Source: a virus. From it: a stretch of 23,370 nt of DNA. A program made the position numbers and the translations under genes. Of the stretch, positions 4,118 through 20,297 are shown in pieces. The stretch spans positions 1-23,370 of the IMG/VR virus record IMGVR_UViG_3300027770_002429, one strand, 5' to 3'. A model generated the notes under the pieces. It was not told the DNA's origin. It worked only from the letters and a program-made list of their open reading frames with translations, and ran no database searches. Position 1 is the stretch's first letter. Every line of letters starts with the position of its first letter.

Positions 4118-4140
4118 GACGCTGTGAAGCGGTCTGAAGG
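4118..4140 (+). promoter_or_regulatory. GNRA hairpin leader, copy A (before portal)
   Basis: CGCT-GTGA-AGCG at 4120-4131 forms a 4-bp stem with a GUGA (GNRA-type) tetraloop. It is preceded by GA and followed by G-TCTG and then the Shine-Dalgarno AAGG at 4137-4140. Fifteen bases separate the stem from ATG 4147. The same cassette recurs before the tail tube gene (10217) and the 138-residue gene (20270), and a partial copy lies before the capsid gene (5888). No U-run follows, so it is not an intrinsic terminator. Confidence 0.6.
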
Positions 4141-4146
4141 CGTGAA

Positions 4147-5814
4147 ATGTCAGTGAGTTACTTAGAAGCCTCGCGCGAGTTGGCAAAACGTGATCAAGGG
4201 TTTCGGTCCAAAAATCTACTTTCGCGCATTTTTTTGCCGCTTGCCAAATTATTTTCTGCCGCGCCATCTGCCGCCAAAATCTTCCGTCGCCGCTCTGCCG
4301 GTGGCGCGGGCCAACGCAGCTACGATGCCGCTGTCGAATCTCGCGCTACTGACGGATGGTCGACGAACGGCGCAAGCGCCAACGCGGAAATCTGGGGCAA
4401 CGTCAGGCCCGTTCGCGAGCGGGCGCGCGACTTAAAGCGCAATAACCCTTGGATTCAGAAGGGTTGCAAGCTCGCGACAAACATCATGGTCGGCGACGGC
4501 ATTCGCCCCAATTGCACAGCAGGTACGCAGCGGATCAAGGAAAGCGCCGCAGCCTATGCGCAACGTTCAGCTAACTGCGCAGAAGCCAACCGGCTTTGGA
4601 ATTTGCAGGCGTCAAAGGTCGATGCCGTGGGCAACCTGTCGATTTACGCTTTGCAGGCGTTGGCTTGGGATGCGATGTTTTCTGACGGCGACGTGTTGCA
4701 GCGCCGGCGGTGGCGTTCAGCGCGTGACGCAAGCCTGACTTTGCCGTATCAAATCGAGTTGTTAGAAGCGGATTATCTGGTTGAGTGGAAAAACCAGATG
4801 CTGGAGGACGGCGGGCGCATCATCCAAGGCATTGAATTCAATAAGATAGGCCGCCCGCGCAAATACTGGCTTTACTCGCAGCACCCCGGCGACGGCTGGG
4901 GGCCGCTTGACACCGCGTACTCGGTTGATGCGATTGCCGCCGCCGACATTGCGCATGGCTACGTTCGCGAGCGTCCCGGCCAAGTGCGCGGGATGTGCCA
5001 GTTTGCCGCCGCCGTCATACCCGCGCGGAATTACGACGATTGCACGCACAGCGTCCGCCTGACGTACCGCAGCAGCAGCAATGTGATCGGCGTTGTTTCG
5101 ACCACGCAAACCGACGATGAGCTTTTTGGCACGCCCGACAACGACAGCGCCGAATCCAGCTATCCCGGCGCGGTTGTCGCCGCCGACGGCACGCCGCTTG
5201 ACGAAATGCGCCCCGCGACGTTTGCGATTATGCGCAACGGCAGCACATGCACGTTCAACAATCCGCAAGCGCCGCAAGGGGTTCGCGAGTACATGAAGGC
5301 CGAGTTGCACGGCATTGCTGCCGCGTTTGCGCTGTCCTACGCCATGTTGAGCGGCGACATGGATGGCACAACCTACGCGACTTGGCGCGCGCAATACGCT
5401 GAATGTTTGGAGGTATTCGGCAATCTGCGCGAGTTGCACATGATCCCGACCGTTTGCGACCCGCAATGGCGCTGGCATTTGGAAGCCTGCTTTGCGGCGG
5501 GACTGCTGCCCGGTGTCGCCGACGATTATCCGGTGGAGTGGAGCACGCCAAAGCCGTTTGGCTTTGATCGCAACGAGGAGGCCAAGACTTCTAAAGATTT
5601 GGTTCGCATCGGCCAGTCCAGCACGCCGCGCGAGATTCGCAAAATGGGCGACGACCCCGATGTTATCTTTGCCGAAATCGTCGAGTTTCGCGCCAAATGC
5701 AAAGCGGCGGGCATTGTCTTTGACAGCGACCCGAACGAAACAAATTTGGCCGGTGCGCCGCGCATCACCGAAAAAGCGGTCGTGCCCGCACCGACAGGTG
5801 AAGGCGCGGGATGA
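4147..5814 (+). CDS. portal protein, lambda family
   Basis: The portal forms the dodecameric ring at one capsid vertex through which DNA enters and to which the tail joins. The 555-residue length compares with 533 for lambda gpB. Family landmarks are visible: YDAAVESR near 58-65, RARDLKRNNPW at 92-102, NIMVGDGIRPN near 113-123, and near the C-terminus the strip from EEAKTSKDL to IRKMGDDP and the following helix (about 478-525). That strip corresponds to the segment where lambda-type portals end their clip and crown region. The N-terminal 50 residues are basic and poorly conserved. It starts from an ATG with AAGG six bases upstream, directly behind hairpin copy A. The 45-base gap after the gpW-like gene is filled by that leader. 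Confidence 0.92.
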   Translation: MSVSYLEASRELAKRDQGFRSKNLLSRIFLPLAKLFSAAPSAAKIFRRRSAGGAGQRSYDAAVESRATDGWSTNGASANAEIWGNVRPVRERARDLKRNNPWIQKGCKLATNIMVGDGIRPNCTAGTQRIKESAAAYAQRSANCAEANRLWNLQASKVDAVGNLSIYALQALAWDAMFSDGDVLQRRRWRSARDASLTLPYQIELLEADYLVEWKNQMLEDGGRIIQGIEFNKIGRPRKYWLYSQHPGDGWGPLDTAYSVDAIAAADIAHGYVRERPGQVRGMCQFAAAVIPARNYDDCTHSVRLTYRSSSNVIGVVSTTQTDDELFGTPDNDSAESSYPGAVVAADGTPLDEMRPATFAIMRNGSTCTFNNPQAPQGVREYMKAELHGIAAAFALSYAMLSGDMDGTTYATWRAQYAECLEVFGNLRELHMIPTVCDPQWRWHLEACFAAGLLPGVADDYPVEWSTPKPFGFDRNEEAKTSKDLVRIGQSSTPREIRKMGDDPDVIFAEIVEFRAKCKAAGIVFDSDPNETNLAGAPRITEKAVVPAPTGEGAG

Positions 5815-5857
5815 TTGCTTGACTTGCACGCGGAATTTACCGCATACTTTTTTTGAC

Positions 5858-5873
5858 TGCTGATTTTTCAGCA
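5858..5873. other. small hairpin in the portal-capsid gap
   Basis: TGCTGA-TTTT-TCAGCA gives a 6-bp stem with a TTTT loop. A run of seven T lies before the stem, not after it, so it does not look like a + strand terminator. It shares the 96-base gap 5815-5910 with hairpin copy B. Confidence 0.3.
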
Positions 5874-5887
5874 ACCCAAATCCAAAA

Positions 5888-5899
5888 CGCTGTGAAGCG
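5888..5899 (+). promoter_or_regulatory. GNRA hairpin, copy B (before protease-capsid gene)
   Basis: The 12 bases CGCTGTGAAGCG are identical to copies A and D. The downstream part differs: there is no TCTG and no clear Shine-Dalgarno (only GGA at 5902-5904), and the next start is TTG at 5911, 11 bases after the stem. It is therefore a truncated or diverged copy. Confidence 0.5.
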
Positions 5900-5910
5900 C
5901 CGGACGACCA

Positions 5911-8058
5911 TTGAAGACCAAGCCCGCAAAATCGCAAGCGATTGCGCCCGCAACTACGCCACTTGACTCGCAGGGTTTGACCCGTGATCAAGCGACGGCT
6001 GCCCGCCGCGCCGCAATGACGCGGGCCGCTCCGGTGCAAATCGACGCGCCCGCCCGCGCGCTGATGGCGACGTGGGACGCAAAAGCCCGCACCATTGACC
6101 TCGTTCTTGCCACCGATACGCCCGTTGCCCGCCAAGACTGGACCGGCGACATCTGGCAGGAGATTCTGTCCTGTGCGCCCGGTGCAATGCGCGATTTGCG
6201 CTGCAATTCCGGTCGCATGTCGCTCACGATTGACCATGGCGACTACGATTCAAGCAACAGCATCGGCCTGATTGTCGCCAATTCCCTGCGATTTGAGCAG
6301 GTTGACGGCGTGCAATCGGCAGTTGTTACCGCGCGCATCAACGATGTGATTGACGGCGATGTCGAGTACAACCGCCCGATTGTCAACTTTGAGCGCGGCA
6401 ATTTGCCAAATACTTCATGCCGTTACCAAGTCTATGGCTGGACAATCGAGCAACGCGAGGGCGCTGCCGACAAATGCACCGCCGTCGATTGGGAGCCGCT
6501 GTCGTTGTCGCCGGTTGCCACGCCTGCTGACCCCAACGCTTACGCCCGCGCATTTGGCGAACGTGCCGAGAATCCTGCAAAAGTTCCGCAACTTGAATCA
6601 ACGCCGCGAGGCGCTTTGGAGCCAGAAATGTCCACCGTCAAAAATCCGATTGAAGCCGCGCCCGTTGTTGAGGCCGTTAAGCCCGCTTTCGCTGCCGGTT
6701 CCTACGCCGACACCTTGCTGGCGCGTTCGATTGCGCTGGAGCCGCAAGGCGTCACGATGGACGAACTGCGCAAGGCGACTGCGGAAAGCAAAGACGATGG
6801 CGATTTCACCGACAAAGTGATCAGCCATTTGGCAGTTCGCAGCGGTTCCGATGTGGCCCGCCACGGCAAGCAAATCGAAGTCGGCAACACCGCGAAAGAC
6901 AACGCGCTTTTGAATCTGGAAGCCGGTTTGTTCATGCGCGCCGAAATGCAGGCGGGCCAAAACACCGTCGAATTGCTGGGCAAAAAGGCCAAAGCCAAAG
7001 ACCTGCAAAAGCTTTCCGAAATGGAAAGCCGCGCCGAGTCGATGGCCGGTGCCAATACCTTGAATCTGATTCGGCATTTCTTCGCCAGCATGGGCGACTT
7101 GGACATCTACAAGGCTTCGGACGAATCCGTTGCTCGCGCGTTCTTGGGCCTGCCCGGTGGCTACCAGTCCCGCGCCGGTTCAATCGGCACAGGCGATTTG
7201 CCGTCGCTTGCGGCCAACTTGGCGACGAAAACGCTGGTCCCGAATCTTCAGGAGCAGTTTTTCCCGTTCCAGAAGTACTGCCAGCCGAAAACCGTCAAGG
7301 ATTTCAAGCTGCAATACCCTGTCACGTTTGACGGCATCGTCAACTTGCCGGTGATGGCAGAAAACCAGAAGTTCACCTTCGTGAACCTGACGGACTCCAA
7401 AGAGTCTTACCAAGTCAGCGGTTACGGTCAGGGCGTGCGGATTTCCGACCGCATGATCATGGCCGACGATTTGGGCGCTCTGCGGTTGACCCCGATCAAA
7501 CTTCAACAGGCAGCCATGCGGACCCGCGTTGCCAACTTCTTCGCTTTCTTGGCCGCAAACGCCAACTTGAGCGACGGCAACGCGCTGTTCAGCGCCGCGC
7601 ATCTCAACGTGATGGCGTACCAAGCGCCGACGACGATTGCGAGCTTTGATGCACAGCGTCAATTGCTCAAAGCGCAAAAAGGCAAAGCGGGCGAGTTCTT
7701 GGAACTCATGCCGTGGGGCGCAATCGTCGGCGACGATGTGCTGACCGGCGCGCAGCAGGCCACCGGCACGCTGTACAGCCCGGTTACGGTTGCCACGGCG
7801 ATTCCGCAGTGGGCTGGCAAAATCGGCGTCGATGGCGCGATTCAGTTAAGCGGCCTTTCGACGTCGTACCTGTTCGCCGACCCCGGCATTTTCCCCGCCA
7901 TCATCTTCGCCACGCTGGAAAGCGCGACGCAGAACGGCATGGCGCTTGAGTCGCGGATCAACTTTGAGAATCGGGCCTTGGAAATCACGCTGTCGGATGC
8001 GGTGGGCTTCGGTCCCGCCAACTCCAGCGGCAACGGCGTCATCCGCAACAAGACCTAA
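5911..8058 (+). CDS. prohead protease-major capsid protein fusion
   Basis: One 715-residue chain combining the maturation protease and the capsid protein. The protease part (about 45-210) has the HK97/U35-type layout: LTIDHGDY with candidate catalytic H109, then TSCRYQV with candidate catalytic S169, then the conserved WEPLSLSPVATPADP strip. Residues 210-400 are Ala/Lys/Glu-rich and probably act as a scaffold-like delta region. The capsid part (about 400-715) resembles the Mu gpT/HK97-fold heads: RISDRMIMADDLGAL at 510-524 and LSDGNALFSAAHLN around 553-566. TTG 5911 is chosen because an in-frame stop lies just upstream at 5893 and residues from there read well. No good Shine-Dalgarno precedes it, which could keep expression of the full chain low. 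An internal ATG at 6628 may produce the capsid part separately. Confidence 0.88.
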   Translation: MKTKPAKSQAIAPATTPLDSQGLTRDQATAARRAAMTRAAPVQIDAPARALMATWDAKARTIDLVLATDTPVARQDWTGDIWQEILSCAPGAMRDLRCNSGRMSLTIDHGDYDSSNSIGLIVANSLRFEQVDGVQSAVVTARINDVIDGDVEYNRPIVNFERGNLPNTSCRYQVYGWTIEQREGAADKCTAVDWEPLSLSPVATPADPNAYARAFGERAENPAKVPQLESTPRGALEPEMSTVKNPIEAAPVVEAVKPAFAAGSYADTLLARSIALEPQGVTMDELRKATAESKDDGDFTDKVISHLAVRSGSDVARHGKQIEVGNTAKDNALLNLEAGLFMRAEMQAGQNTVELLGKKAKAKDLQKLSEMESRAESMAGANTLNLIRHFFASMGDLDIYKASDESVARAFLGLPGGYQSRAGSIGTGDLPSLAANLATKTLVPNLQEQFFPFQKYCQPKTVKDFKLQYPVTFDGIVNLPVMAENQKFTFVNLTDSKESYQVSGYGQGVRISDRMIMADDLGALRLTPIKLQQAAMRTRVANFFAFLAANANLSDGNALFSAAHLNVMAYQAPTTIASFDAQRQLLKAQKGKAGEFLELMPWGAIVGDDVLTGAQQATGTLYSPVTVATAIPQWAGKIGVDGAIQLSGLSTSYLFADPGIFPAIIFATLESATQNGMALESRINFENRALEITLSDAVGFGPANSSGNGVIRNKT
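6618..6630 (+). promoter_or_regulatory. possible internal ribosome binding site and start
   Basis: GGAG at 6618-6621 lies six bases before an in-frame ATG at 6628 (codon 240 of the fusion gene). Translation from here would give a 476-residue scaffold-plus-capsid protein without protease, starting MSTVKNPIEAAP. Lambda uses the same device in C/Nu3. The signal is stronger than that of the upstream TTG start. Confidence 0.45.
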
Positions 8059-8131
8059 GCCGGTTTTGAGACTTGTTTAGTCAATTCATAGCCTTGTCAA
8101 AATAAGGCAAAAACAGACAGGAGTTTTGATC
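8059..8131 (+). other. 73-base gap between capsid and decoration genes
   Basis: No gene is visible. Two weak hairpins can be drawn: GACT-TGTTT-AGTC at 8070-8082 and GCCTT-(8)-AAGGC at 8091-8108. Neither is followed by a T-run. The end carries the ribosome binding site of the next gene (CAGGAG at 8118-8123). Confidence 0.3.
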
Positions 8132-8728
8132 ATGGCAACTTTTCGCGCGGCTCGTTCCGGCTACTCGATTTATCCCGTCGCGGATGTCACGATCGACGTG
8201 CCGTTTTTGCAGGCGGACGGCACTTGGGCAATCCCCAATGCGACCGTCACGGTTGCAAGCGGCAATCCGGTCACCGTCGAAATCCAGGACATCCATCAAC
8301 TGCCGAAGGTGTCCACCGACGTTTTCACCGTCGGCAGCACGCTTTACTGGGATGCGTCGGTTGGCAAATTGACGATCACACCGACTGGCAACAGCCCGAT
8401 CGGTATCAGCGTTTTGGCCTGCGCCAATCCGTCGTCCGTCGGTCAAGTCAACTTGAACGCTGCGCCGCACAAGTCCGTGGGCTACAGCAAAATCAAGCTG
8501 GTTCCGCTGCTGACGATTCCGGCTGGCACCAAGCCGAGCAATACGCTCGCTGTCGGTACCGAATGGAACGGCGCTGTGTGCATCTGCACCGACATCGGCG
8601 CGACTCCCGGCACGCCCGATGCGACTGTGGCGAACTTGTCGGGCGTCGTCTCGGCGGGCAACCTTGTCGTCAAATCCGCAGTCAATGCCACTGCGGATGC
8701 GAAAATCGCGGTTCTGCTCGTACTGTAA
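8132..8728 (+). CDS. putative capsid decoration protein (DUF2190-like)
   Basis: A 198-residue protein immediately after the capsid gene, the position of lambda D. The middle (about 65-110), with VGSTLYWDASVGKLTITPTG, then PIGISVLACA and VNLN, resembles the DUF2190 capsid cement family, where a YWD strip and a closing RLN-type strand are typical. The C-terminal 85 residues are rich in Thr, Val and Ala and look like an added beta domain that could be exposed on the head surface. ATG 8132 is preferred over the in-frame TTG at 8126 because CAGGAG sits 8 bases before it. Such proteins usually stabilise the expanded capsid. Function is inferred from resemblance and position. Confidence 0.62.
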   Translation: MATFRAARSGYSIYPVADVTIDVPFLQADGTWAIPNATVTVASGNPVTVEIQDIHQLPKVSTDVFTVGSTLYWDASVGKLTITPTGNSPIGISVLACANPSSVGQVNLNAAPHKSVGYSKIKLVPLLTIPAGTKPSNTLAVGTEWNGAVCICTDIGATPGTPDATVANLSGVVSAGNLVVKSAVNATADAKIAVLLVL

Positions 8729-8746
8729 TTCACGCAAGGCGGCGCA

Positions 8747-9100
8747 ATGCCATCGCTATTTGACACGATGGCTGCGCCGATTCTTACCGCTGGGATTGAC
8801 GCGGTTTTTGCCGAAGCGATTGAATACTGGCAGGGCGCGACGCATATCACCGGAATCACCGGCATATTCTTTTCCGATAACATCGATCAGCCGATCGGGC
8901 AGTCAACCGGCATTGCGACACAATCGCCGCAGTTCTTCATTGACCCGGTAGTATTGGCGGCCCATGGCGTGACCGTGCCCAAAGTCGGCGACACCGGCGA
9001 TTTGATCAAGCTCGTTGCCACCGGCGTTTTTTACCGCGTGCAATCGGTTGACGAAATGCAGGGCACTCACAGCAAATTCAGCGTGTTCATCAACAGTTAG
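8747..9100 (+). CDS. head-tail joining protein, FII-like
   Basis: A 117-residue protein whose size (lambda FII is 117) and place between the decoration protein and the tail terminator match gpFII, which binds the connector and receives the tail. A helical N-terminus (about 1-27) is followed by beta-rich sequence ending in strips such as VGDTGDLIKLVATGVFYRVQSVD, which reads like the closing beta barrel of the FII family. The ribosome binding site is AAGG 11 bases before the ATG. No catalytic motif is expected in this family. Confidence 0.68.
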   Translation: MPSLFDTMAAPILTAGIDAVFAEAIEYWQGATHITGITGIFFSDNIDQPIGQSTGIATQSPQFFIDPVVLAAHGVTVPKVGDTGDLIKLVATGVFYRVQSVDEMQGTHSKFSVFINS

Positions 9101-9112
9101 AAGGGCTTTGCA

Positions 9113-9556
9113 GTGGCGTATCTGACCCGCAAAAGCATCCGCGACGACCTGATTGCCCGCGTGCAAGCCCTTGGCATTGTTGCATCAAACAAGGTTTTTG
9201 CGGGCCGGTCGTCGATGGTTCCGGACACCGAACTGCCCGCCATCGAGGTCTACGTCGATGCCAGCGGCGGGCCGAATCTGGTGGACGCCAGCACGCGGCC
9301 AAACTTCGACAACCAATGGACTTTGCAAATCATTTACATGGCGACGGCGCTTGACGACGCCGCGCTTGAGTTGGAGGCCGACAAAGGCGACGCAATCGAA
9401 CGCGGCCTGCTCAATGATCAGGTGTTCATCGGCTTGTGGTCGCAAATCATGCAAAAGAATCAGCAAGTCACGCGCGGGCGCACGAAAGGCAACCGCCCCG
9501 GCATGGCTGTCGCGCTGACGCTTGTCGTCAAATACCCCGTCAACGACTGGAGTTAG
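9113..9556 (+). CDS. tail terminator protein, U-like
   Basis: A 147-residue protein with the gpU pattern: an N-terminal helix (RKSIRDDLIARVQAL), then VFAGRSSM and the strip ELPAIEVYVDA (about 42-52), followed by a beta-helix-beta core and a final strand ALTLVVKYPV. gpU caps the finished tail tube as a hexamer and joins it to the head. The start is GTG 9113, preceded by GAAGGG; no upstream start exists because the previous gene ends at 9100. The following gene begins three bases after this stop, so the two are coupled. Confidence 0.75.
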   Translation: MAYLTRKSIRDDLIARVQALGIVASNKVFAGRSSMVPDTELPAIEVYVDASGGPNLVDASTRPNFDNQWTLQIIYMATALDDAALELEADKGDAIERGLLNDQVFIGLWSQIMQKNQQVTRGRTKGNRPGMAVALTLVVKYPVNDWS

Positions 9557-9559
9557 CGT

Positions 9560-10207
9560 ATGTTCGCGATTCAGGTTGACGGTATTTTGGCCCGCGCACT
9601 TGCGGCACCGCTCGCACTGGGCAGTCTGAACGACAGCGCCAAGCAAATGTACGCGGCGGGCGAGGGAATGCTGCAAAACATCCGCGAACGTATGGCTTTG
9701 GGCGAAACGTCGGACGGCGAGCAGGTTCCGGGCGCGGGTGGATGGCTCAAACTGCCCAAAGATTACGCCGACGCCAGCGGACTGAAAAAGACCTGGTACG
9801 CGAGCCGCGACGAGCTTTATGCTGCGCTCGCGAGGAATCGCAACAGTTTCAAGGTGTCGGGCGGTATGTGGCTTAGTGCCAAGGCCACAACCTCCAAATC
9901 CGGCTTTTCAATGGACTTCGCCGGCGCTTCGCTTGGTATGGGCGACGGCAAACAAATCGGCGCTCAGTTTGTTGAAAACGCTGAAAAAGGCGCGGGGATT
10001 TTGAAGCGCACAGGCATTCAAGTCTTGCAAATGGCCGTCAGCGAGGAGCGGGCACTTGCAACGGCGCTTGCCAACTCTATCGCGGGCCAATCCTTAAAAA
10101 AGGCCTTTGGCGTGGTAGAAACGACGCTTGCGCAAAATGTTGAGCCTGCGTATGATCGTCTGGTTGAGCGGATGCGTGCTTACGGCATAAACCCGCGAGA
10201 TCCATAG
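9560..10207 (+). CDS. putative tail completion protein (gpZ position)
   Basis: I do not firmly recognise this 215-residue protein. It sits among the neck and tail-completion genes, where lambda has Z. It begins with about 45 residues of predicted helix (ARALAAPLALGSLNDSAKQMY, then GEGMLQNIRERM), continues with a Gly/Lys-rich middle containing WLKLPKDYADASGL and repeated SGGMWLSAK/SGFSMDF-type strands, and ends in long helices (130-205). A helix-barrel-helix plan would fit the gpZ or HK97 gp10-like families, but I see no diagnostic motif. Gene order (U-like before this, the reverse of lambda Z-U) adds some doubt. Confidence 0.45.
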   Translation: MFAIQVDGILARALAAPLALGSLNDSAKQMYAAGEGMLQNIRERMALGETSDGEQVPGAGGWLKLPKDYADASGLKKTWYASRDELYAALARNRNSFKVSGGMWLSAKATTSKSGFSMDFAGASLGMGDGKQIGAQFVENAEKGAGILKRTGIQVLQMAVSEERALATALANSIAGQSLKKAFGVVETTLAQNVEPAYDRLVERMRAYGINPRDP

Positions 10208-10216
10208 GGCAATTCT

Positions 10217-10239
10217 GACGCCGTGAGGCGCTCTGAGGG
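10217..10239 (+). promoter_or_regulatory. GNRA hairpin leader, copy C (before tail tube)
   Basis: CGCC-GTGA-GGCG at 10219-10230. Relative to the other copies the T-A pair next to the loop is replaced by C-G, so pairing is kept by a compensatory change. It is preceded by GA and followed by C-TCTG and then AGGG. Fifteen bases separate the stem from ATG 10246, exactly as in copy A. Confidence 0.6.
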
Positions 10240-10245
10240 TGCGAC

Positions 10246-11631
10246 ATGACTGATAAATTTTTCCCGTGGATTCAAAAGCAGGTTGCGTTCTGCGCGCAGT
10301 TCACGGCGGGCGCTCCCGACCCGCTGGCGGAAGCCACTGATTCAACAAAGTTTGTCTCGGTTCCGTGCGAGGTTGCGCCGATTGACAATCCCGTCGGCGT
10401 GTTTCCGAACCTGCAATTTTCGACGCAGCGTTACGGCACCAAGCAAAAACCGGCAGTTGGCGGGCGCGACGGCGCAAAGTTCAAGCTGAAACTGGAAGGC
10501 CGTAGGATTCTCGACAGTTACGTTCCGGCTGTCGATACGCTGTCAGGCGCTGGATCGACGCTGGCGCTGCTGCCGCCCGAATTCCTGCTACTGGCTGCGG
10601 CGCTTGGTAGCGACAACCCAATCGCCACAACGGCGGATTTATTCAATCACGGCGCGCACATCCCGAATCAGCCCTACGCAGCGGCCAAGGTGATCGGTGC
10701 ATCAACCACCGTGATTCCGGTTTTTGCGGCAACCGCCGTCAACTATGGCGCGGGCAAACTGTTTTTGTGCGGCTCTGGCGTATCCGATTCGCTGCTAACG
10801 CGCGGATTTGTGAAATCTCAGGATGTTGCAGCCGATACCGTCACCCTGCGTCGCGCGGCGAAAAACGCCAGCGTCAACCTCGACAACGTGTATCCGACCG
10901 CCACCGCATTCATGAGCCAAAACCCACAGATTCCAATGACGTTTTGGGTCATGGGACCGGACGCCAAGTTCCGCGACAGCTACGTCGGCTGTTTCTGCGA
11001 AAAAATCACGATGACGATTACCGAAGGAAAACCGCCGGTTTATGAATTCGATTACGTCGCGCTGAGTTGGAATCAGTACGCGACAACGACAGCGCCGACT
11101 TTTGCCGCTGATTTCAAACAGATCGATTGCCTGATCGGGCGCAACAAAACTTCCTTGAGCATTTACAAGGACACGGACGGCACGCCTGCATTAGTCGTTG
11201 ACAACATTCGCAATCTCAAGATCGAAGTCGACATGAAGCTGTCGCCGATCGGCGATTACAATGCACTGGAAGGCGTAAGCACGCGCTACCCAGAGGATTG
11301 CAGCGTCAAGCTAACATTCGAGCGCCCCAAGGTCGCGGCGGGCCAAATGGACACGCTCACCGGCGCAGCGGACGCTTGGAATCTCGGCCTGACCGCTGGG
11401 CAGTCGTTCGCGATCGAGCTGTACAGCGGCGATGGCATCGGCAAGCAAGCAGCCTGGTCGCTGCCGTGCATGGCGCTGCAATCACACGCAAAACGGGCGT
11501 TAATCGGCGGCGAACTCGGGCAACAGCTTGAGTTTATGGCGTTCCCCTATGGCGCGGACGTGAACGATGCCACAGTCTCGGCTGCCAACGGCGCGACCGC
11601 GCAAGCAGGGCTTGCCGTCGCGCTCGGCTAA
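10246..11631 (+). CDS. major tail tube protein
   Basis: A 461-residue protein in the lambda V position, between tail completion genes and the chaperone pair. It is large for a tail tube subunit (gpV is 246), but proteins of this size occur in the Phage_tube_2 type. It is beta-rich throughout. Visible strips include FKLKLEGRRILDSYVPAVDTLS (about 82-105), EKITMTITEGKPPVYEFDY and NLKIEVDMKLSPIGDYNALEG near the C-terminal third, the latter typical of a tube-forming beta sandwich. It would polymerise as hexameric rings around the tape measure. It starts at ATG 10246 behind hairpin copy C, with AGGG six bases upstream. I call it from order and beta content rather than from a strict motif. Confidence 0.7.
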   Translation: MTDKFFPWIQKQVAFCAQFTAGAPDPLAEATDSTKFVSVPCEVAPIDNPVGVFPNLQFSTQRYGTKQKPAVGGRDGAKFKLKLEGRRILDSYVPAVDTLSGAGSTLALLPPEFLLLAAALGSDNPIATTADLFNHGAHIPNQPYAAAKVIGASTTVIPVFAATAVNYGAGKLFLCGSGVSDSLLTRGFVKSQDVAADTVTLRRAAKNASVNLDNVYPTATAFMSQNPQIPMTFWVMGPDAKFRDSYVGCFCEKITMTITEGKPPVYEFDYVALSWNQYATTTAPTFAADFKQIDCLIGRNKTSLSIYKDTDGTPALVVDNIRNLKIEVDMKLSPIGDYNALEGVSTRYPEDCSVKLTFERPKVAAGQMDTLTGAADAWNLGLTAGQSFAIELYSGDGIGKQAAWSLPCMALQSHAKRALIGGELGQQLEFMAFPYGADVNDATVSAANGATAQAGLAVALG

Positions 11632-11652
11632 TACTCCGAAAGATAAGGCGGT

Positions 11653-11669
11653 TTTGCAAACATTGCAAA
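11653..11669 (+). promoter_or_regulatory. inverted repeat in the tube-chaperone gap
   Basis: TTTGCAA-ACA-TTGCAAA forms a perfect 7-bp stem with a 3-base loop, extendable by two G-T pairs. It lies in the 62-base gap after the tail tube gene and 24 bases before the chaperone ATG. No T-run follows, so it is a weak terminator at best; an attenuator that lowers chaperone output relative to tube protein is possible. Confidence 0.35.
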
Positions 11670-11693
11670 GTCTATAAAGTTTCACGAGGTTGC

Positions 11694-12068
11694 ATGTTTT
11701 CACTATACGCCGATCAGCCGCGCGATTTTGTCCGGCGCGACGATCCTGCCTTCAACACGGAACTGCCCAGCGCCAAACGCTTTTTTACCGGCGACAACTC
11801 GCGCGATCAGTGGGCTGTAGCTGACGGCCAGTCCGAATCATGCACCCGCTACGGCGTGCGCGAACTGAGTGACGCAGAAAACCGTGCAATTATCGCAGCC
11901 GACGACACCAAGGCGGCGCTTTGGCATGCGGGGCATCTATGCCTGATCACGGTCAACGGCAAGCCGATCGATGCGGACAAGCCGCTTGCTGCCAGAGCGT
12001 TGTTATCGCTTGGTTTTTTGGTATTTGAGCGTGCAAATCGCCCTTTGGAATTCGCCGCGACGGCGTAA
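11694..12068 (+). CDS. tail assembly chaperone, gpG-like
   Basis: A 124-residue protein between tail tube and tape measure, the place of lambda G. Such chaperones bind the tape measure and recruit tube subunits, and they are absent from the finished tail. The chain is mixed alpha/beta, with ELSDAENRAIIAADDTKAALWHAGHL (about 56-81) as the main helical part. The ATG has GAGG 7 bases upstream. The ORF contains a slippery heptamer at 12041-12047, 18 bases before its stop, and a long open reading frame continues in the -1 frame; this is the hallmark of the G/GT arrangement. The identification depends on that context more than on sequence similarity to gpG. Confidence 0.75.
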   Translation: MFSLYADQPRDFVRRDDPAFNTELPSAKRFFTGDNSRDQWAVADGQSESCTRYGVRELSDAENRAIIAADDTKAALWHAGHLCLITVNGKPIDADKPLAARALLSLGFLVFERANRPLEFAATA

Positions 12069-12451: not shown

Positions 12452-12452
12452 A

Positions 12453-14750
12453 ATGTCGGATGTCAGTACAAATATCCGCATGGTCGGGCAAGACGACGCA
12501 ACCGAGGCTATCGGTAAGGTTACGGATTCCGTCAAAAAATCAGCGGATTCCATCAAAAACGCCAGCAAGGAAAATGACGGCTGGATCGCAGGCACAGCCA
12601 AGACCATCGCCGCGTGCGTCGCCGCCGCCGTCGCGTTCGACGCAGGCACGATCGCCGCCACGAAATGGTCGATGGAGCTGGAAAAGCTGCGCGCCAGCGC
12701 ACAAGCGGCGCTCGGGCCGGAGGGTCTCGGCAAGGCGCAAGACCTCGCCGAAATGGGCGGCGGCGGGCAGACGGAAAACTACGTCGCGCTGGCCAAGAGC
12801 CTGAACGACGTTGGCGTAAGGTCGCAATTTGTCAGTGAAAACTTCCGCGTGCTCACCACATCGGCGCAAAATATCGGACTGGACGCCAAAGACGGCATCG
12901 ATGCGCTGAACAAGGCCGTCGTTTCCGGCGACGACAAGGCGCTGAAATCACTAGGCGTTTTTGTCGATCTGAAAACTGGGATCGATGACTACGCCAAAGC
13001 ACACTTCATAACTGCGGATTCTGTAGACAAAAACACCCAAGCGCAGATCAGGGCGGACGCGATCCAGAAAGTGCTGGCAGGCACGACCGAGATCACGCGC
13101 TCGGTCGTCGCACGCCAAGGCGACGCAATCGACAAAGTTAGCAACGGCATCAAGGACATGAACCTTTGGATCAGCAATCTGGTAGCCGAGCCGATTGTCG
13201 AAGTGGCTGAGTGGATCGGCCACGCCAAAGATGAAATCTACAAAATGGCTTTGTCGATCAAAGAGATTGGCGTCAATCCATTTGGGCCGATGTGGGATTC
13301 GATCAAGCGAATCATCGAAATCATAGGTCAATTGGTCAAGGCGGCGGCGGGCGAATTGACTGGTGTTTTTACAGCAGTCAAGCAGGCTGCGCACGGCGAC
13401 TTCAAGCAGGCCGCCGACACGATGACCGCGACACTGAAGAAGGTCCGCGATATCTCAACGAGTTACGGCGCTGATATCAAAGATGAATGGACGGATTTTC
13501 TAAAACCCGAGTTGACCGGCTACGTCGATCGCGTTCGCGACACGATGGCGAAAATCCCCGACAAAAAATCCGTGACTTTGGAGCTGCGCGGTGCAGTGTT
13601 TGCCACCGAGACGCTTAACCTGCTGAATACACAACTTGATCAGTACAGCAAAGCCGTTGCCGCAAACGCTGCGGCGGCGGAAAAGGCGCACGCCAAGGCT
13701 GTCGCGGCGGCGGCAGCGGCGCTGGCGCTGGCAAAAAGCCGCAATGAATTCGCGATGTCGGCAGAGGCGAATCTACTGCACGCCAAGGCGGACGCGGCCA
13801 AAGCCGCTGATACCTCAGATCAATACGAGCGCGAGCGCGACGCGGTGAAATTCGACACGCTGCGCAAGCTGACCGCTGCTGATTTGGAGGCGCAACGGCT
13901 TCACGTCGATAGCGCGACAAAAAACAAGGCGTTGCGCGCAATCGAGCAAGAGGAATCAACAAAGCTGTTAGCGATCGGGCAGTTGGAAATCGAGCAGGCG
14001 CAGAAAAAGAAGCAAAAACAGATCGAACTGAATTCGGCAAGCGAACTCGGGCTAAAACACGCGCAAAGCGCCGCAGTGCAAGCGGAAATCGACAACGCCA
14101 AATCGAAATCGACGTTTTCACTCGGCAGCAACACCGGCGAATTGGCGGCAAAAAAAGCGCTAATCGACTTAGAATCTATAGAGTTAGAGCGCGTTCACGC
14201 TGTCGCTGCGGCCAAAATTGACGCGGCGAAATACGGAATCAGCAGCACAAAGGCGGAGTTGGCGATCGATCTGGACGCGGCCAACAAGCGCATGGCGATC
14301 AAAACCAACTTGGCGCGCCTCGAAAAAGAGGCGCAGCGCGAGCAAATTTCGGGTGAATTGGCGGTTGCTGACGCTGTGCGCGGCGCAATCGACAAAATCG
14401 GCATCAGCAAGCGCGCGGGCGCGGCGCTGGACGCAGTGATCGAGGGGGCAAAAGCCTACGCGAGCTATCCCGATGTCGCGGGCATTATTTCGCACGGTGC
14501 CGCCGCGCTGGCATTTGCCGCGATTGCGGGCGGTCTGACAGGTGGCGCGCCGACACCGCCGAGCGGCGGCGCCGGTCCATCCACAGGCCCAGGATCGGCA
14601 TCACAGGGGCTTGGCGGCAGCCAGAATCAGCAACCAACCATAAACAATTACTTTTTGGGCTTCGGCACGATCCAGCAAATGGGCCGGCATATTCAACAGG
14701 CGACAGCGGCGAGCAACAACACCGGCTTCGCGGGCATGAAGGCGGCCTAA
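12453..14750 (+). CDS. tape measure protein
   Basis: A 765-residue, Ala/Lys/Glu-rich, largely helical protein directly after the chaperone pair, as expected for the protein that sets tail length and occupies the tube. Hydrophobic stretches lie at about 48-68 (IAGTAKTIAACVAAAVAF) and 672-692 (AYASYPDVAGIISHGAAAL), flanking the extended part. Residues 390-660 are strongly coiled-coil-like (repeated AAAEKAHAKAVAAAAAAL and KKKQKQIELN types). The C-terminus is a Gly/Pro/Ser linker followed by NNYFLGFGTIQQMGRHIQQA. At roughly 0.15 nm per residue (a general rule for tape measures) the tail would be near 115 nm. AAGG lies 5 bases upstream of the ATG, inside the chaperone reading frame. Confidence 0.9.
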   Translation: MSDVSTNIRMVGQDDATEAIGKVTDSVKKSADSIKNASKENDGWIAGTAKTIAACVAAAVAFDAGTIAATKWSMELEKLRASAQAALGPEGLGKAQDLAEMGGGGQTENYVALAKSLNDVGVRSQFVSENFRVLTTSAQNIGLDAKDGIDALNKAVVSGDDKALKSLGVFVDLKTGIDDYAKAHFITADSVDKNTQAQIRADAIQKVLAGTTEITRSVVARQGDAIDKVSNGIKDMNLWISNLVAEPIVEVAEWIGHAKDEIYKMALSIKEIGVNPFGPMWDSIKRIIEIIGQLVKAAAGELTGVFTAVKQAAHGDFKQAADTMTATLKKVRDISTSYGADIKDEWTDFLKPELTGYVDRVRDTMAKIPDKKSVTLELRGAVFATETLNLLNTQLDQYSKAVAANAAAAEKAHAKAVAAAAAALALAKSRNEFAMSAEANLLHAKADAAKAADTSDQYERERDAVKFDTLRKLTAADLEAQRLHVDSATKNKALRAIEQEESTKLLAIGQLEIEQAQKKKQKQIELNSASELGLKHAQSAAVQAEIDNAKSKSTFSLGSNTGELAAKKALIDLESIELERVHAVAAAKIDAAKYGISSTKAELAIDLDAANKRMAIKTNLARLEKEAQREQISGELAVADAVRGAIDKIGISKRAGAALDAVIEGAKAYASYPDVAGIISHGAAALAFAAIAGGLTGGAPTPPSGGAGPSTGPGSASQGLGGSQNQQPTINNYFLGFGTIQQMGRHIQQATAASNNTGFAGMKAA

Positions 14751-14751
14751 C

Positions 14752-15417
14752 TTGCTGAGTTTTGAGACAAATCACAACTGGACGCTTGGGTTAACGGTCT
14801 CAGTCGCCGCCGCGCCAAGCACGTTTGCCGCCACAAAAAAAAGTGCTTGCGGCGTCATGCTTGAGTTTTTGGCATGGCTCAATGCAGGCGCGCGCCCGTG
14901 GTTTGGCACGCGAACCTTCGACTGGCGTGCCACCCGCAACGGCGATTCCGCCATTGAATTCACGATCACTTGCTCGGGGACGTTTTCGATCAACGCGGTG
15001 TCAGGCACTTGCGCCGCACGCCTTGGTTTTGTCGCGGGCGGTCCCTACACCGCGACCACAGGCACCGGCGCGACAGGCACGACCGCGCCGCTCCAATGGC
15101 GGCTTGACAGCGCCGATCCATCGCCGCAAGGCGGAATCGACACATCCGCGCAAGGATCGGTCTGGCGCGACAGTCCAGCGACGTGCGCGATCGTCCCGCG
15201 CGCTGAGGCGATCGAAACGAAATACGACAACGCGCGGCGTGAAAGCGTGCTAAATGATTGCACAAATCCGCGCGCAGCTTACTTGAGCGATCCAAGTTTC
15301 AACACCGCTTTGCACGTCGCGCCGTCAACACATTGGAGTCGCTACCAAATCGGCAAGATACAGCCCAAGCGTTTGACCGGCATCCGCTGGCAAGTTGCGT
15401 TTGAGGTGGCGCGATGA
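14752..15417 (+). CDS. tail tip protein with an LGF module, function unknown
   Basis: A 221-residue protein between the tape measure and the large tip protein, where distal-tail components are encoded. I do not recognise a named family. A short amphipathic helix (GVMLEFLAWLNAGAR, about 34-48) is followed by beta strips FDWRATRNGDSAIEFTIT and FSINAVSGTCAARLGF, with LGF at 91-93, then a Thr/Gly-rich linker and a C-terminal half with several Asp and Arg. The same helix-to-LGF spacing occurs in the N-terminus of the next protein, so the two may be paralogous building blocks. The start is TTG 14752, two bases after the tape measure stop; its stop overlaps the next ATG (ATGA). Confidence 0.6.
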   Translation: MLSFETNHNWTLGLTVSVAAAPSTFAATKKSACGVMLEFLAWLNAGARPWFGTRTFDWRATRNGDSAIEFTITCSGTFSINAVSGTCAARLGFVAGGPYTATTGTGATGTTAPLQWRLDSADPSPQGGIDTSAQGSVWRDSPATCAIVPRAEAIETKYDNARRESVLNDCTNPRAAYLSDPSFNTALHVAPSTHWSRYQIGKIQPKRLTGIRWQVAFEVAR

Positions 15418-18400
15418 GCCTTTACCGCATAGAATCATACGCTTACAGCGAAGGGCCAAGCAACGGCCTAGAAGCGTGCAAATTCGCGGACGTGCAGACC
15501 TTTGGTGCAACCGATTTCGGAGGCACCTACTATGCGCGCCCGCTCGTGCCGATGGCATTTTTGGATTTGATCGCTTACTGGGCGGCGCGATTCACCGTGA
15601 ATTTAGGCGGTAATTACAGCATAACCTACAGCGACACGACGGGCCGAGTCACGATCGCGACCAACGACGCCACTGTATTTACGCCGCTATTTTCCGGCAA
15701 CACCTTGGCCTTTTTAGGCTTTTCGCCGCAGACTTTCATCGCCGCACAGACGTTCACCGGCGATCTCGCGCCGCTCGGCATTCTCACGCCCGAAGCGCAA
15801 GATATGGACTTGCGCGCGGATAATCCGTTGATTGCGCAAGGAGATTTTCGCCACGGTCGCAAAATCCCGATCGTGTTTGGCAATCACAAAACGATCGACG
15901 CGGTTTTGTACTTGCGCAATCGCGAGTTACCGCTAATGACCAGCGGATATCTGCGCGGACGCGTGCGGATTTCGACGCTGGCGATCGGTCTCGCCACAGC
16001 CTACGATCCGTTGAATCTAGGCGGTTATTTCGACGCGCAGATCGTCAAATGGGGCAAGCCAACGCGGACAAATGCAGGCTTAAAGTCGCGCGTCCCGATC
16101 GTCCTCTCGGTCGCGCGCACCGCACTCACAGCCGCAGAGCATCTAGGCCAGATCGCCAGTCTGCTACGCTACGGCTGGCAAGTCGCGCACCTGCTGACAA
16201 TTGAAGGGATTCCCGTCGTTTTTGGCGAAATGGCGGGCATGGCGATCCCAAGTGGATTTAGCAGTCTAGCGCTCGGCAGCGACGGCAAAGGCACGCTGAT
16301 CATAGACGATTCGGCAGAATATGGCCCCGAAGTCAACCGCGAGACCGGGATCGGCGCAGGCTTGCCGCTCGGCTTCAAATTCGCTGATACTGTTGATTTT
16401 AATCAATATCTCAAGCGACCGTCGAAAGTCGCCGTATTGACAGCCAATTTAGCCTACAACGGCACGCAGATCGACGTAGACAGCACAGCGCAATGGGGCG
16501 CGCCAGCGGCGGGCCTTGATTTCACAATCTGGTGCGAAAACGAACACATCCACGTCACAGAGATCACCGCAACCGCGTTCAAGGGACTAACCCGCGCAAT
16601 CAATGGCGGTTTTGCCAGCACGCACTACGCGGGCCAAGCGGGCGGGCTTGTGACTGACGTTCCGCGATATTGGCGCGGGCGGGAAGCGCGGCTGTTTGCG
16701 CACGCGGTTTCGCCGGGCGGAATCGTCAGCACACTAACCGCTGAAAAAGAGGAATGGTTTCGCGGATCAATCGACAATGGTCCTGAGAGATCGGCTGGCT
16801 ACTGGACGTTTGAGGCGCAAAGCCTTGATCGGCGGCTGTCGGCACCGCTCGCACCGGCGTTGTCGGGCACAGTGTTTTCGCAGGCCATGTTCATCGTCAA
16901 GTCGCAATTTTCGTTCAGCGTTTTCCTTGCCGGTCACGATGTCGCAGGCGCCTACGTCGCGATGCAGGCCGCACCGATCGTGGTGCAGCCGTTTTTGGGC
17001 CATGATGGCGAATTGTGGAGCGAACCCGAGATCATAGCTAAGTTTGCATCCAGCTTTGCGACGGCGTTAGCACTGGACGCCACCGCGCCAACGTACATCA
17101 GCGGTCTGACTGTCGATTTAAGCGATCCGCGTCAAATGGCACTGGTACTCAAAGCCGCAGCCGCAATTTTTAAGGTCTCGATTCAATTCACGATTTACGG
17201 CGGACAGCAGCAGTTGCCGGATGTGCCGTTTCCCGGTGGTGTTGCGGCGGGCGACAAATTCAATTTTTGCAGTTGGGTCGAAGGCACCACACCCGTTGCG
17301 ACAAAAGAGGATTTCAGCTCTAGCGTCACAATATCATTGGATAAAGCGCCGGATGTTGCAATACCGTCAAAAGGCATGGTATCTATTGGCGATGTTGGTA
17401 AGGGCGGCATTTTCTACGAATTTTCAGAATCAAGCATCAACGGGAATCTCCTGCAATTGTCCGGCATTACGGATAGCATGGTTAAGGCGGCGCTGTTTGG
17501 GCCAGAAATCATCGGCCTCAAAGCTGAGATTCAGGCCGCTAGTTACGGCGGCACGCCAGCGCAAGCGATGCAAACGGCCATACAGTCCAGCGGTTACGGC
17601 ACGCGCGGACCGTTCGACACCGTCGCCGACGGCTACGGCATCGACAGCACGATCCTCAATAGCGCCAGCTTCGCGCAACTAACGACAACGCCTAGTCTTT
17701 TGGCACATACGCGCGGCAAGTCGTTCGCCGATCTATTCGGGCCGTTTCTGGCGCTCAATCAAATGGGCGTTTTGGTCAAGAAAATCGACGGTATACAGCA
17801 AATCGCCTGCGTCGATATCAACCCAGGCGGCTCGGATTTTGCGATCACGATCACCGATGAGCACCTGTTGACCGGATCGGGTTGGCCGATCACGCCGCAG
17901 GGCAGGCGTGAAATACCGAATCAAATCATCGTGCATCAAATGATGGGCGAAACCGAAACCGCAACCTACAACGTGATCGACGGCAGCATCGCTTTTGCCC
18001 AAGGCGGAAAAACCTTAGAGTTTTCCATACCTTCAGAAGATACGAAAAACCTTGCGCAAATGGCGCTTTGGACGGGCCGCGACCTGCTGTTGCAAACGCA
18101 ATGCCTTCAAATTGTTGAGGTTCGCCTTGTGCCGTGGGTTGGCGATATCCAACCGGGCGATCTTGTCGGCGTTGTCGTCACCGATCCGACGCTGTGGCAG
18201 TGGTCGACCGGCACGGCGGGCTATTCCGGCGTCGGGCGCTGCACCGGCATTCACCGCGATCCGAATACCGCCGCGCTGATTTGCGTTCTGATTCTGGACG
18301 GTTATCGCACTACCGGCAATCTCTCGCCAGCCGCACCGGTTGCCGCATGGCAGGGCGCAGCCAACGCGCCAACGCGGATCGATATCACCGATCCCGTTGC

Positions 18401-18695
18401 AATCACGGACCTATTGCACAGTTGGGCGGCGTTTTTCAGCAAGGCGTTGCTCAGCAGCAACCCGTTCAAAATCCTGCACTATCGACCGGGCGAGGGCGCG
18501 GAAGCGGCGGGCGCTGGCTATTCAATCACCGCCGTTGCCCTTGTCGCTGGCGTCTGTCGACTCACAGTCGGCGCGGTCATCGGCGCGCCTGTACTGGTAG
18601 CAAATTCATCATACGTTACGTTGCCGTTGACGGCAGACTGTAACACCTACACAGCCGCGCGATCACACGCACTGGACGGCACTTCATGGGCGTAA
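15414..18695 (+). CDS. large tail hub/tip protein
   Basis: A 1093-residue protein in the region where lambda-like phages encode J and other phages encode a gp27-like hub. The N-terminus (1-125) carries an LGF module (LGF at 101-103). Residues about 378-410, containing EITATAFKGLTRAING and the following THYAGQAGG, match a common tail-protein strip in which a beta domain ends with a gltRg-type turn. Residues 800-945 look hub-like: ITITDEHLLTGSGW, then EIPNQIIVHQ, then TLEFSIPSED with helix AQMALWTGRDLLLQ, and IQPGDLVGVVV with D916. It probably closes the distal end of the tail and contacts the cell. Start and stop overlap the neighbours by 4 and 10 bases, so it belongs to a tightly coupled group. 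Confidence 0.75.
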   Translation: MSLYRIESYAYSEGPSNGLEACKFADVQTFGATDFGGTYYARPLVPMAFLDLIAYWAARFTVNLGGNYSITYSDTTGRVTIATNDATVFTPLFSGNTLAFLGFSPQTFIAAQTFTGDLAPLGILTPEAQDMDLRADNPLIAQGDFRHGRKIPIVFGNHKTIDAVLYLRNRELPLMTSGYLRGRVRISTLAIGLATAYDPLNLGGYFDAQIVKWGKPTRTNAGLKSRVPIVLSVARTALTAAEHLGQIASLLRYGWQVAHLLTIEGIPVVFGEMAGMAIPSGFSSLALGSDGKGTLIIDDSAEYGPEVNRETGIGAGLPLGFKFADTVDFNQYLKRPSKVAVLTANLAYNGTQIDVDSTAQWGAPAAGLDFTIWCENEHIHVTEITATAFKGLTRAINGGFASTHYAGQAGGLVTDVPRYWRGREARLFAHAVSPGGIVSTLTAEKEEWFRGSIDNGPERSAGYWTFEAQSLDRRLSAPLAPALSGTVFSQAMFIVKSQFSFSVFLAGHDVAGAYVAMQAAPIVVQPFLGHDGELWSEPEIIAKFASSFATALALDATAPTYISGLTVDLSDPRQMALVLKAAAAIFKVSIQFTIYGGQQQLPDVPFPGGVAAGDKFNFCSWVEGTTPVATKEDFSSSVTISLDKAPDVAIPSKGMVSIGDVGKGGIFYEFSESSINGNLLQLSGITDSMVKAALFGPEIIGLKAEIQAASYGGTPAQAMQTAIQSSGYGTRGPFDTVADGYGIDSTILNSASFAQLTTTPSLLAHTRGKSFADLFGPFLALNQMGVLVKKIDGIQQIACVDINPGGSDFAITITDEHLLTGSGWPITPQGRREIPNQIIVHQMMGETETATYNVIDGSIAFAQGGKTLEFSIPSEDTKNLAQMALWTGRDLLLQTQCLQIVEVRLVPWVGDIQPGDLVGVVVTDPTLWQWSTGTAGYSGVGRCTGIHRDPNTAALICVLILDGYRTTGNLSPAAPVAAWQGAANAPTRIDITDPVAITDLLHSWAAFFSKALLSSNPFKILHYRPGEGAEAAGAGYSITAVALVAGVCRLTVGAVIGAPVLVANSSYVTLPLTADCNTYTAARSHALDGTSWA

Positions 18696-20197
18696 CCGCA
18701 CCCGGCGCGACATACCTCGTGCAAAAAGGAAATCAGTTCAACGGGCAACCGATGGCAATTGAGCCGTTGCGCACGATCCTGATCAATTCCAACTGGTTTT
18801 GGAAGTACCACCGCCCGCCCATTGTTTCCGTTGCGTTTTTGGCGCAAGCGCTCGCAGCGGATCGCGTTTTCATCGTGCCGATCCTGCCCAGCGCGGACGG
18901 CACGCCGGGCAGTACCACCGGCTTAAAATACCGTTTTCAATTCAGCATGTACGCAGGTGCAGCGGGAACATGCGGCGTCACGATCGAATGGGGCACCACA
19001 ATGGCCGGCGCATGGACGCTGATCGACGGGCCAAACAACGCCACGCTTGTAAATGGTCAATCGTTCTACACAGTTGCAACCGATCGCGCCATTGACACCC
19101 GCGCGCGTTTGCTGCGAATCACGTTTAAGTACAACATCATCGCCTACCGTCCCGCGCATTTGCTGGTTTGGCCGCAGCCTCCGGCGATGATCGCGGGCAA
19201 GCAGGCGTCCGGTTTTGTGCCGTTCGACGATACGCTAATCAATACAGCAGGATCGCCGATCAATACCGAAATGCTTGACCGCTGCGCGATCAATGCCCGC
19301 GCGGTCATGTTGGATCGCTGGCAGGTAGCCGCTAATTTTGCTCAGGAAATCACGCGCGGGCTTGCCCTGTACGGCGTGACTGCGGCCAATGCGACGATAG
19401 CGCGCTTTCGCCCGCAGATTCCAACAGACTCAGGCGTGCCCATTTATGCTTTGGAAGTGCGCGCAATCGCAAGCGTTTCAGGCGGCACCACAGCGGATCG
19501 CCTGCAAATCGTCGGGCCAAACGGTGTTTTTCCGCTCGCCGCCGATGGCGCGCTGCAAACCGCAACGATCGGATGCCACGGCAAAATGCCAGATATTTCC
19601 GTGATTTTGACCGCTGACGGCGCGAATACCACCTACCTGCACAGCTTGGCGATTTTCTGGCGACCTTACGGCGATCAGTTAGGCAAAGCCACGATCTGCA
19701 ACGGCATCATCTCGCCAGTTGCCAAAAACTCGCTATTACTAGCTGCCGATCAAGCGATCCGCGCGGCGGCGCTGCGACCCTACGCGATGCCGTCGCATTG
19801 TACCGAGGCCAACGTCGCGGGCGGCGCGGATCGCTGCGTATTTACAGCGGTTATCCCGCCTTGCGGCGTGCTGCACGGCCAATGGCACGTTCTGCGGGCG
19901 GCGCTGCCGTTCACCGGCGCTGCGCAATCAAACAGCTATTTTGACACCACTACGGACGCCAGCCCCGCTAGCATCGCCAAGAGCGCAAAATCAGGCACGG
20001 AATGCTTTGTGCATCAGGGCGCGTCCGCATGGCACAGCGGCGGCGGAAAAAAAGACGACGGCACCGCCGCGAGCGAGCCGAGACTTCTGCAACTAAATCC
20101 GCTACTTGCGCCAGCAACGGAGGTTTGCGAGGTACGCAACGCCGTGGGCTGGACGTTGCAATTGCACGACTTTACAGCGGATTTAGAGACTCTATAA
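18686..20197 (+). CDS. distal tail protein, unrecognised
   Basis: A 503-residue protein that I do not recognise. It overlaps the hub gene by 10 bases and therefore is probably co-translated and co-assembled with it. The chain is beta-rich with many short strands (VSVAFLAQALAADRVFIVPIL near 47-67, RFQFSMYAGAAGTCGVTIEWG near 83-103) and two regions of about 150 residues with similar texture, compatible with tandem beta-sandwich domains. It has no signal peptide or membrane span. Cysteines are spread rather than paired in a motif. Position after the hub suggests a receptor-binding or tip-decorating role, but there is no sequence proof. Confidence 0.55.
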   Translation: MGVTAPGATYLVQKGNQFNGQPMAIEPLRTILINSNWFWKYHRPPIVSVAFLAQALAADRVFIVPILPSADGTPGSTTGLKYRFQFSMYAGAAGTCGVTIEWGTTMAGAWTLIDGPNNATLVNGQSFYTVATDRAIDTRARLLRITFKYNIIAYRPAHLLVWPQPPAMIAGKQASGFVPFDDTLINTAGSPINTEMLDRCAINARAVMLDRWQVAANFAQEITRGLALYGVTAANATIARFRPQIPTDSGVPIYALEVRAIASVSGGTTADRLQIVGPNGVFPLAADGALQTATIGCHGKMPDISVILTADGANTTYLHSLAIFWRPYGDQLGKATICNGIISPVAKNSLLLAADQAIRAAALRPYAMPSHCTEANVAGGADRCVFTAVIPPCGVLHGQWHVLRAALPFTGAAQSNSYFDTTTDASPASIAKSAKSGTECFVHQGASAWHSGGGKKDDGTAASEPRLLQLNPLLAPATEVCEVRNAVGWTLQLHDFTADLETL

Positions 20198-20297
20198 GCA
20201 GGCTTGCGCGCGGCGCAAAAAACCCGCATGATCGCACAGCGCCTGTTGCCATGGCTGGCGCGAAAATTTGACGCTGTGAAGCGGTCTGGAGCAGAAA
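20198..20297 (+). other. 100-base gap before the distal accessory genes
   Basis: No supported gene. It holds GGCGCAAAA about 60 bases upstream of hairpin copy D, a string also seen shortly upstream of copy A (around 4101). The last 28 bases are the copy D leader. Confidence 0.4.
20270..20291 (+). promoter_or_regulatory. GNRA hairpin leader, copy D
   Basis: CGCTGTGAAGCG at 20272-20283, preceded by GA and followed by G-TCTG and the Shine-Dalgarno GGAG (20288-20291), six bases before ATG 20298. Fourteen bases separate stem and start, one fewer than in copies A and C. The stem and TCTG are identical to copy A across 18 bases. Confidence 0.6.

Follow-up and report, generated by a model that had tools for sequence, protein, structure and literature searches.

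A hairpin-forming repeat lies just 5' of five start codons in a freshwater phage, and on balance it is probably an RNA element that acts in cis where translation of virion genes is initiated. The DNA analysed (IMGVR_UViG_3300027770_002429; 23,370 nt, hereafter the window) is part of the phage genome. Translation initiation is indicated by the position of the repeat before a Shine-Dalgarno sequence (SD) and a start codon, by the presence of one copy within a coding frame and by the lack of promoters upstream of the copies other than B. The copies, designated A to E, and the genes that they precede are listed in Table 1.

Table 1. Hairpin copies, target genes and proposed internal product in the window (CM, covariance model trained on copies A to D).
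Feature	Position	Strand	Evidence	Location, SD and start codon
Copy A, hairpin GACGCT-GTGA-AGCG(G)TC	4118..4134	+	pattern match; CM 46.9 bits; structure rule	5' of portal gene; SD AAGG 4137-4140, ATG 4147
Copy B, reduced 4-bp hairpin CGCT-GTGA-AGCG	5888..5899	+	pattern match; CM 31.8 bits; alignment	5' of protease-capsid fusion gene; weak SD GGA 5902-5904, TTG 5911
Copy C, hairpin GACGCC-GTGA-GGCG(C)TC	10217..10233	+	pattern match; CM 44.8 bits; MFE fold	5' of putative tail tube gene; SD GAGGG 10235-10239, ATG 10246
Copy D, hairpin GACGCT-GTGA-AGCG(G)TC	20270..20286	+	pattern match; CM 41.8 bits	5' of 138-aa ORF; SD GGAG 20288-20291, ATG 20298
Copy E (new), hairpin AACGCC-GCGA-GGCG(C)TT	6600..6616	+	CM trained without E, 26.8 bits; structure rule	within protease-capsid ORF; SD GGAG 6618-6621, in-frame ATG 6628 (codon 240)
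Portal protein gene (lambda family)	4147..5814	+	PF05136 1.9e-74; phrog_21	
Protease-scaffold-major capsid fusion gene, 715 aa	5911..8058	+	phrog_4523 6e-76; PF25209 residues 420-710	
Putative tail tube gene	10246..11631	+	weak phrog_290; gene order as in Rhodobacter phage RcOceanus	
138-aa ORF, tail/virion region	20298..20714	+	no family match	
Proposed scaffold-capsid product without protease, 476 aa	6628..8058	+	in-frame ATG and SD after copy E	

Four copies of the 12-base pattern CGCYGTGARGCG had been placed by the original prediction at 4120, 5888, 10219 and 20272, directly upstream of gene starts. These coordinates were confirmed, exclusively on the + strand, with the end of the core 11-15 nt 5' of the start codon in each case. 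The pattern was expected 0.03 times in the window, and at least four copies were obtained in 0 of 100 shuffles. Eleven GNRA hairpins with at least four Watson-Crick pairs were found on the + strand of the window, and copies A to D are the sole intergenic ones. The flanks said to be shared by three copies were also recovered: A (from 4118), C (from 10217) and D (from 20270) have a 22-nt sequence, GACGCYGTGARGCGSTCTGRRG, in common. A and D differ at one of these 22 bases; compared with A, copy C differs at 4 and copy E at 7 of the 22 positions. The consensus over the copies is RACGCYGNGARGCGSTYTGRRG, and the matched region of copy E (6598-6630) reads UCAACGCCGCGAGGCGCUUUGGAGCCAGAAAUG.

Spacing is nearly constant in copies A, C, D and E, where the core lies 14-15 nt from the start codon, the stem finishing 1-2 nt upstream of the SD and 11-12 nt upstream of the start codon. 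In these four of the five copies the repeat overlaps the SD, which is formed by its conserved RRG; copy B has the weaker GGA. Copy B shares only the 12-nt core with A, C and D, the two outer pairs being absent, and it is of little weight in the alignment because MAFFT misplaces its gap. The portal-capsid gap in which it lies contains, in this order, a promoter-like sequence (5819-5848), a U-loop hairpin (GCTGA-TTTT-TCAGC) and copy B. A second candidate repeat, CGCAAAACA, which precedes two starts, was rejected as it also occurs within a gene.

The stem proved longer than first described. In copies A, C and D the stem comprises six Watson-Crick pairs, and a single G or C bulges out on the 3' side; as RNA these copies read 5'-GACGCY-GUGA-RGCG(S)UC-3', S being the bulge. 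The GA and TC flanks are conserved because a G-C and an A-U pair extend the stem past this single unpaired base. The stem over the longer copies is 5'-RACGCY-GNGA-RGCG(S)UY. The loop is of the GNRA type, as had been proposed: GUGA in four copies and GCGA in copy E, a difference confined to the free N. The compensatory change reported for copy C is present, although by itself it is weak evidence for a fold (about 1% by simulation; 108 of 500 shuffles).

A covariance model search for more copies and further paired changes, as suggested with the original prediction, returned both. The model built from A to D recovered these four copies and copy E (E=1.3e-4), the next match being at E=0.41. Copy E retains all six pairs, the GNRA loop and the bulge; its outermost pair is A-U in place of the G-C found elsewhere, and its loop-closing pair is C-G, like that of copy C. 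Changes on both sides are thus seen at two stem pairs over the five copies, and the inner pairs C-G, G-C and C-G are invariant. Paired cells amounted to 93% in the five copies and to 23-43% when the partner was slid. When copy E was simulated from its nearest copy, all pairs and the GNRA loop were kept with a double change in 0.4% of cases. A U-A closing pair occurs with a bulged G in A and D, and a C-G closing pair with a bulged C in C and E; copy B (U-A, C) is the exception.

RNA folding in context returned the bulged stem as the minimum free energy (MFE) structure for copy C and as the centroid for copy A, and folding in a shorter context returned it as the centroid for copy D. The predicted stems are short, with modest folding energies of -3.8 to -6.9 kcal/mol; with longer context the fold was significantly better than in shuffles for none of the copies. 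A rival fold of copy C (10222-10248, -12 kcal/mol), in which the SD and AUG are paired, competes with the GNRA hairpin; this alternative, peculiar to copy C, might act as a switch. The earlier claim that the fold of the RNA matters is nevertheless well supported by the comparison of copies, through the fifth copy, the second compensatory pair and the conserved GNRA loop.

Specificity was examined with a sequence-blind rule: six Watson-Crick pairs, a GNRA loop and one 3' bulge after pair four. In the window this rule found exactly A, C, D and E, each 5' of an SD and start codon, and no hairpin on the - strand. In 1.12 Mb of other phage DNA (both strands) it found 21 hairpins, 0 of them before an SD and start codon. 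The rule was devised after the copies were known and thus tests specificity, not discovery. Synonymous shuffling of the capsid gene (2000 shuffles) never produced the combination of hairpin, SD and start, and the hairpin arose in 0.03% of trials in which the junction peptide was recoded with the codon usage of that gene. The codons present at copy E include rare ones (CGA, 7% of Arg codons; GCT, 11%; CCA, 13%; TCA, 13%). A search of the whole window with Rfam 15 returned nothing at gathering score. No T-run follows the stem in any of the four original copies, as had been noted, and no + strand terminator-like site (a T-run after a stem) was found at any copy.

Copy E lies in the linker of the 715-aa protein, between an N-terminal protease part and the capsid part (residues 420-710). 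An in-frame ATG with an SD was found near the protease/scaffold junction in 8 of 8 fusion genes, against 0.14 expected per 41 codons. The seven other genes, in which this SD is a good one, come from phages infecting Rhodobacter, Pseudomonas (two), Vibrio/Shewanella, Shewanella, Bordetella and Synechococcus; the junction sites in these relatives were chosen after alignment and Ostro has several candidates, so that the strength of the figure is somewhat overstated. This conservation makes it very probable that copy E marks a true internal start, giving a scaffold-capsid protein without protease, and the junction starts in all eight phages suggest that internal initiation is family-wide. A three-in-one protease/scaffold/capsid gene has been described in Pseudomonas phage MD8 (PMC8508860); the terms 'internal' and 'start codon' did not turn up in a text search of that paper.

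Scaffold starts internal to protease genes are known in Mu-type phages (PMC4378225), and lambda C/Nu3 has a nested scaffold start (PMC8508860, PMC4378225). In these systems an in-frame start with an SD past the protease domain gives the scaffold product. Here likewise ATG 6628 (codon 240), preceded by GGAG, stands at the end of the protease domain. The gene differs from both in being a single protease-scaffold-capsid gene, so that the predicted internal product is scaffold-capsid, and in that its internal start has a hairpin in common with four other starts. Internal initiation is therefore an established principle, here extended to a fused gene. The internal copy also predicts how single-gene phages could obtain much capsid and little protease, through an additional start in frame at the domain junction.

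The nameable targets of the element all belong to the virion region. The designation of 10246-11631 as tail tube is supported by synteny with Rhodobacter phages, whereas sequence comparison showed no similarity. Structure predictions were of low confidence for this protein (pLDDT 30) and for the 138-aa protein (pLDDT 42). A CCCTTTG slippery heptamer (12041-12047) lies near the end of ORF 11694-12068, with the -1 frame open downstream; it is likely to direct a programmed frameshift like that of tail assembly chaperones. A 491-aa open frame (4762-6237, - strand) is antisense to the portal and capsid genes and is probably a composition effect. At 601-1899, between the terminase small and large subunit genes, a ParB-like nuclease-DNA methyltransferase fusion is encoded. 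Strong expression fails to explain every target, since the portal is not made in high copy number, and a putative decoration protein gene at 8132 is without the element though high expression would be expected of it.

Among the roles listed in the original prediction, translation initiation is favoured by the start-linked spacing, the SD overlap and the internal start; RNA processing or stability and protein binding are less favoured. The mRNA is predicted to fold into a short hairpin in which six pairs, interrupted on the 3' side by a bulged G or C, are capped by a GNRA tetraloop. This stable stem, placed at the 5' border of the 30S footprint, would fix the 5' side locally and leave the adjoining SD unpaired and presented. 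Chosen virion cistrons would be marked in this way for efficient initiation. At copy E, ribosomes starting from ATG 6628 would produce scaffold-capsid without protease in amounts exceeding the full fusion, and the TTG start of the full fusion, which follows the reduced copy B and a weak SD, would give less product. The scheme supposes that the RNA folds in vivo and raises initiation, a trans-acting factor being unnecessary. As the hairpin is defined and carries compensatory changes, a translation role is directly testable. A more elaborate version, in which the bulged GNRA hairpin is read by a phage-encoded or phage-altered factor that sets both ratio and timing of the virion proteins and, by way of the internal copy, the proportion of fusion to scaffold-capsid made from one gene, is a tentative proposal to which we give limited credence.

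The strongest alternative is an RNA operator, recognised as a bulged GNRA hairpin by an RNA-binding protein (phage or host) or a small RNA that would jointly repress or time virion translation, as do coat proteins or RegA. Translational operators classically take the form of a bulged hairpin next to the SD. The invariance of the three inner pairs in five copies and the restriction of nameable targets to the virion region are in keeping with this reading, and a regulator gene could lie elsewhere, since the window is part of the genome. Variation at the bulge base, at the N of the loop and at both end pairs leaves the structure intact, however, which fits recognition of structure more than of sequence. 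Moreover, no RNA-binding regulator was identified, and the sites of T4 RegA, being unstructured and A+U-rich (PMC3014915), offer no precedent for the hairpin form. We regard an RNA operator as possible but rather unlikely.

An mRNA processing or stability element, which would fix or protect 5' ends just before the ribosome site, is less probable still. Hairpins at 5' ends can protect mRNAs, and four of the copies are intergenic. Such a function does not account for the near-constant distance to the SD and start or for the overlap of the SD with the conserved block, and copy E is within coding sequence. Stems of 4-6 bp are also too short for RNase III.

A DNA operator, that is, an inverted repeat bound by a dimeric protein regulating transcription, appears very unlikely. 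Short dyad repeats 5' of genes can be operators, and a promoter-like sequence (TTGACT-18-CATACT) lies ahead of copy B, but none was found upstream of the other copies. The site overlaps the SD, so that a transcript starting there would lose it. Neither the fixed start-codon spacing nor the copy within a coding frame is explained, and the 1-nt offset of the outer arms, normal as an RNA bulge, spoils the symmetry of the DNA. That the copies arose by recent duplication, or are recombination linkers where gene modules join, with no RNA role, is scarcely credible: A and D are one base apart in 22, but the differences of C and E from A preserve all pairs and the loop, and copy E sits inside a gene.

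Relatives of the element were sought in sequence collections. Queries with the portal, capsid, putative tail tube and a 1093-aa protein against viral_contigs returned only contig 3300009161_003222, which is 99.94% identical to the window; its 11 differences fall in none of the elements. The TerL query returned 14 other viral_contigs at 30-36% identity, all without the element, and the capsid query against genome_contigs gave a single weak partial match (32%). Matches to element DNA patterns in viral_contigs beyond 3300009161_003222 were set aside as chance, nearly all being inside long ORFs and many unpaired. In BLAST searches, elements C and D matched phages, and element D matched plasmids, at chance level only, and no convincing recurrent start-linked repeat was found in distant relatives. 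In the collections searched, the element was seen in this virus and the 99.9% identical contig only.

The translation initiation element proposed here can be compared with three groups of phage signals. Like T4 RegA sites, it is one translational signal at the initiation regions of several phage genes; RegA sites are A+U-rich, unstructured and at or just 5' of the AUG, whereas the present element is a G+C-rich hairpin upstream of the SD (PMC3014915). Cluster EG Microbacterium phages carry 18-bp inverted repeats, GATCAACCNNGGTTGATC, that recur 8-10 times (PMC7302621). These too occupy short intergenic regions and lie 14-22 bp ahead of start codons. They differ in being a palindrome that has neither GNRA loop nor bulge and for which no compensatory changes are reported, in being situated at the right genome end and in that no internal-start copy has been reported.

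The closest parallel is provided by the Start-Associated Sequences (SAS/ESAS) of Cluster K mycobacteriophages and Cluster EF Microbacterium phages (PMC3203893, PMC7302621). They are short conserved repeats, all oriented alike, that include the SD and are located at start codons or immediately 5' of them; an upstream inverted-repeat part is present in about half, and a role in translation initiation was proposed with the mechanism left open (PMC3203893, PMC7302621). The statement that no element of this form was known thus requires partial amendment as to kind, such repeats having been reported in actinobacterial phages. The present element likewise has multiple start-linked copies in one orientation (five, all +) with the SD in the repeat. 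Its consensus, given above, differs from GGGATAGGAGCCC / GGGAAAGGACCCC of the SAS/ESAS, and five copies occur in a fragment, compared with 11-19 per genome. Cluster K copies precede non-structural genes, whereas those described here precede the portal, protease-capsid and putative tail tube genes and the internal capsid start. Furthermore, the repeat described here is itself the hairpin, with a bulge, a GNRA loop and compensatory changes, and an internal start is among the sites that it marks. The layout is shared but sequence and gene class differ, so the element is not a member of the SAS; the best reading of the sequences is that it is like the mycobacteriophage SAS in kind and different in sequence and form.
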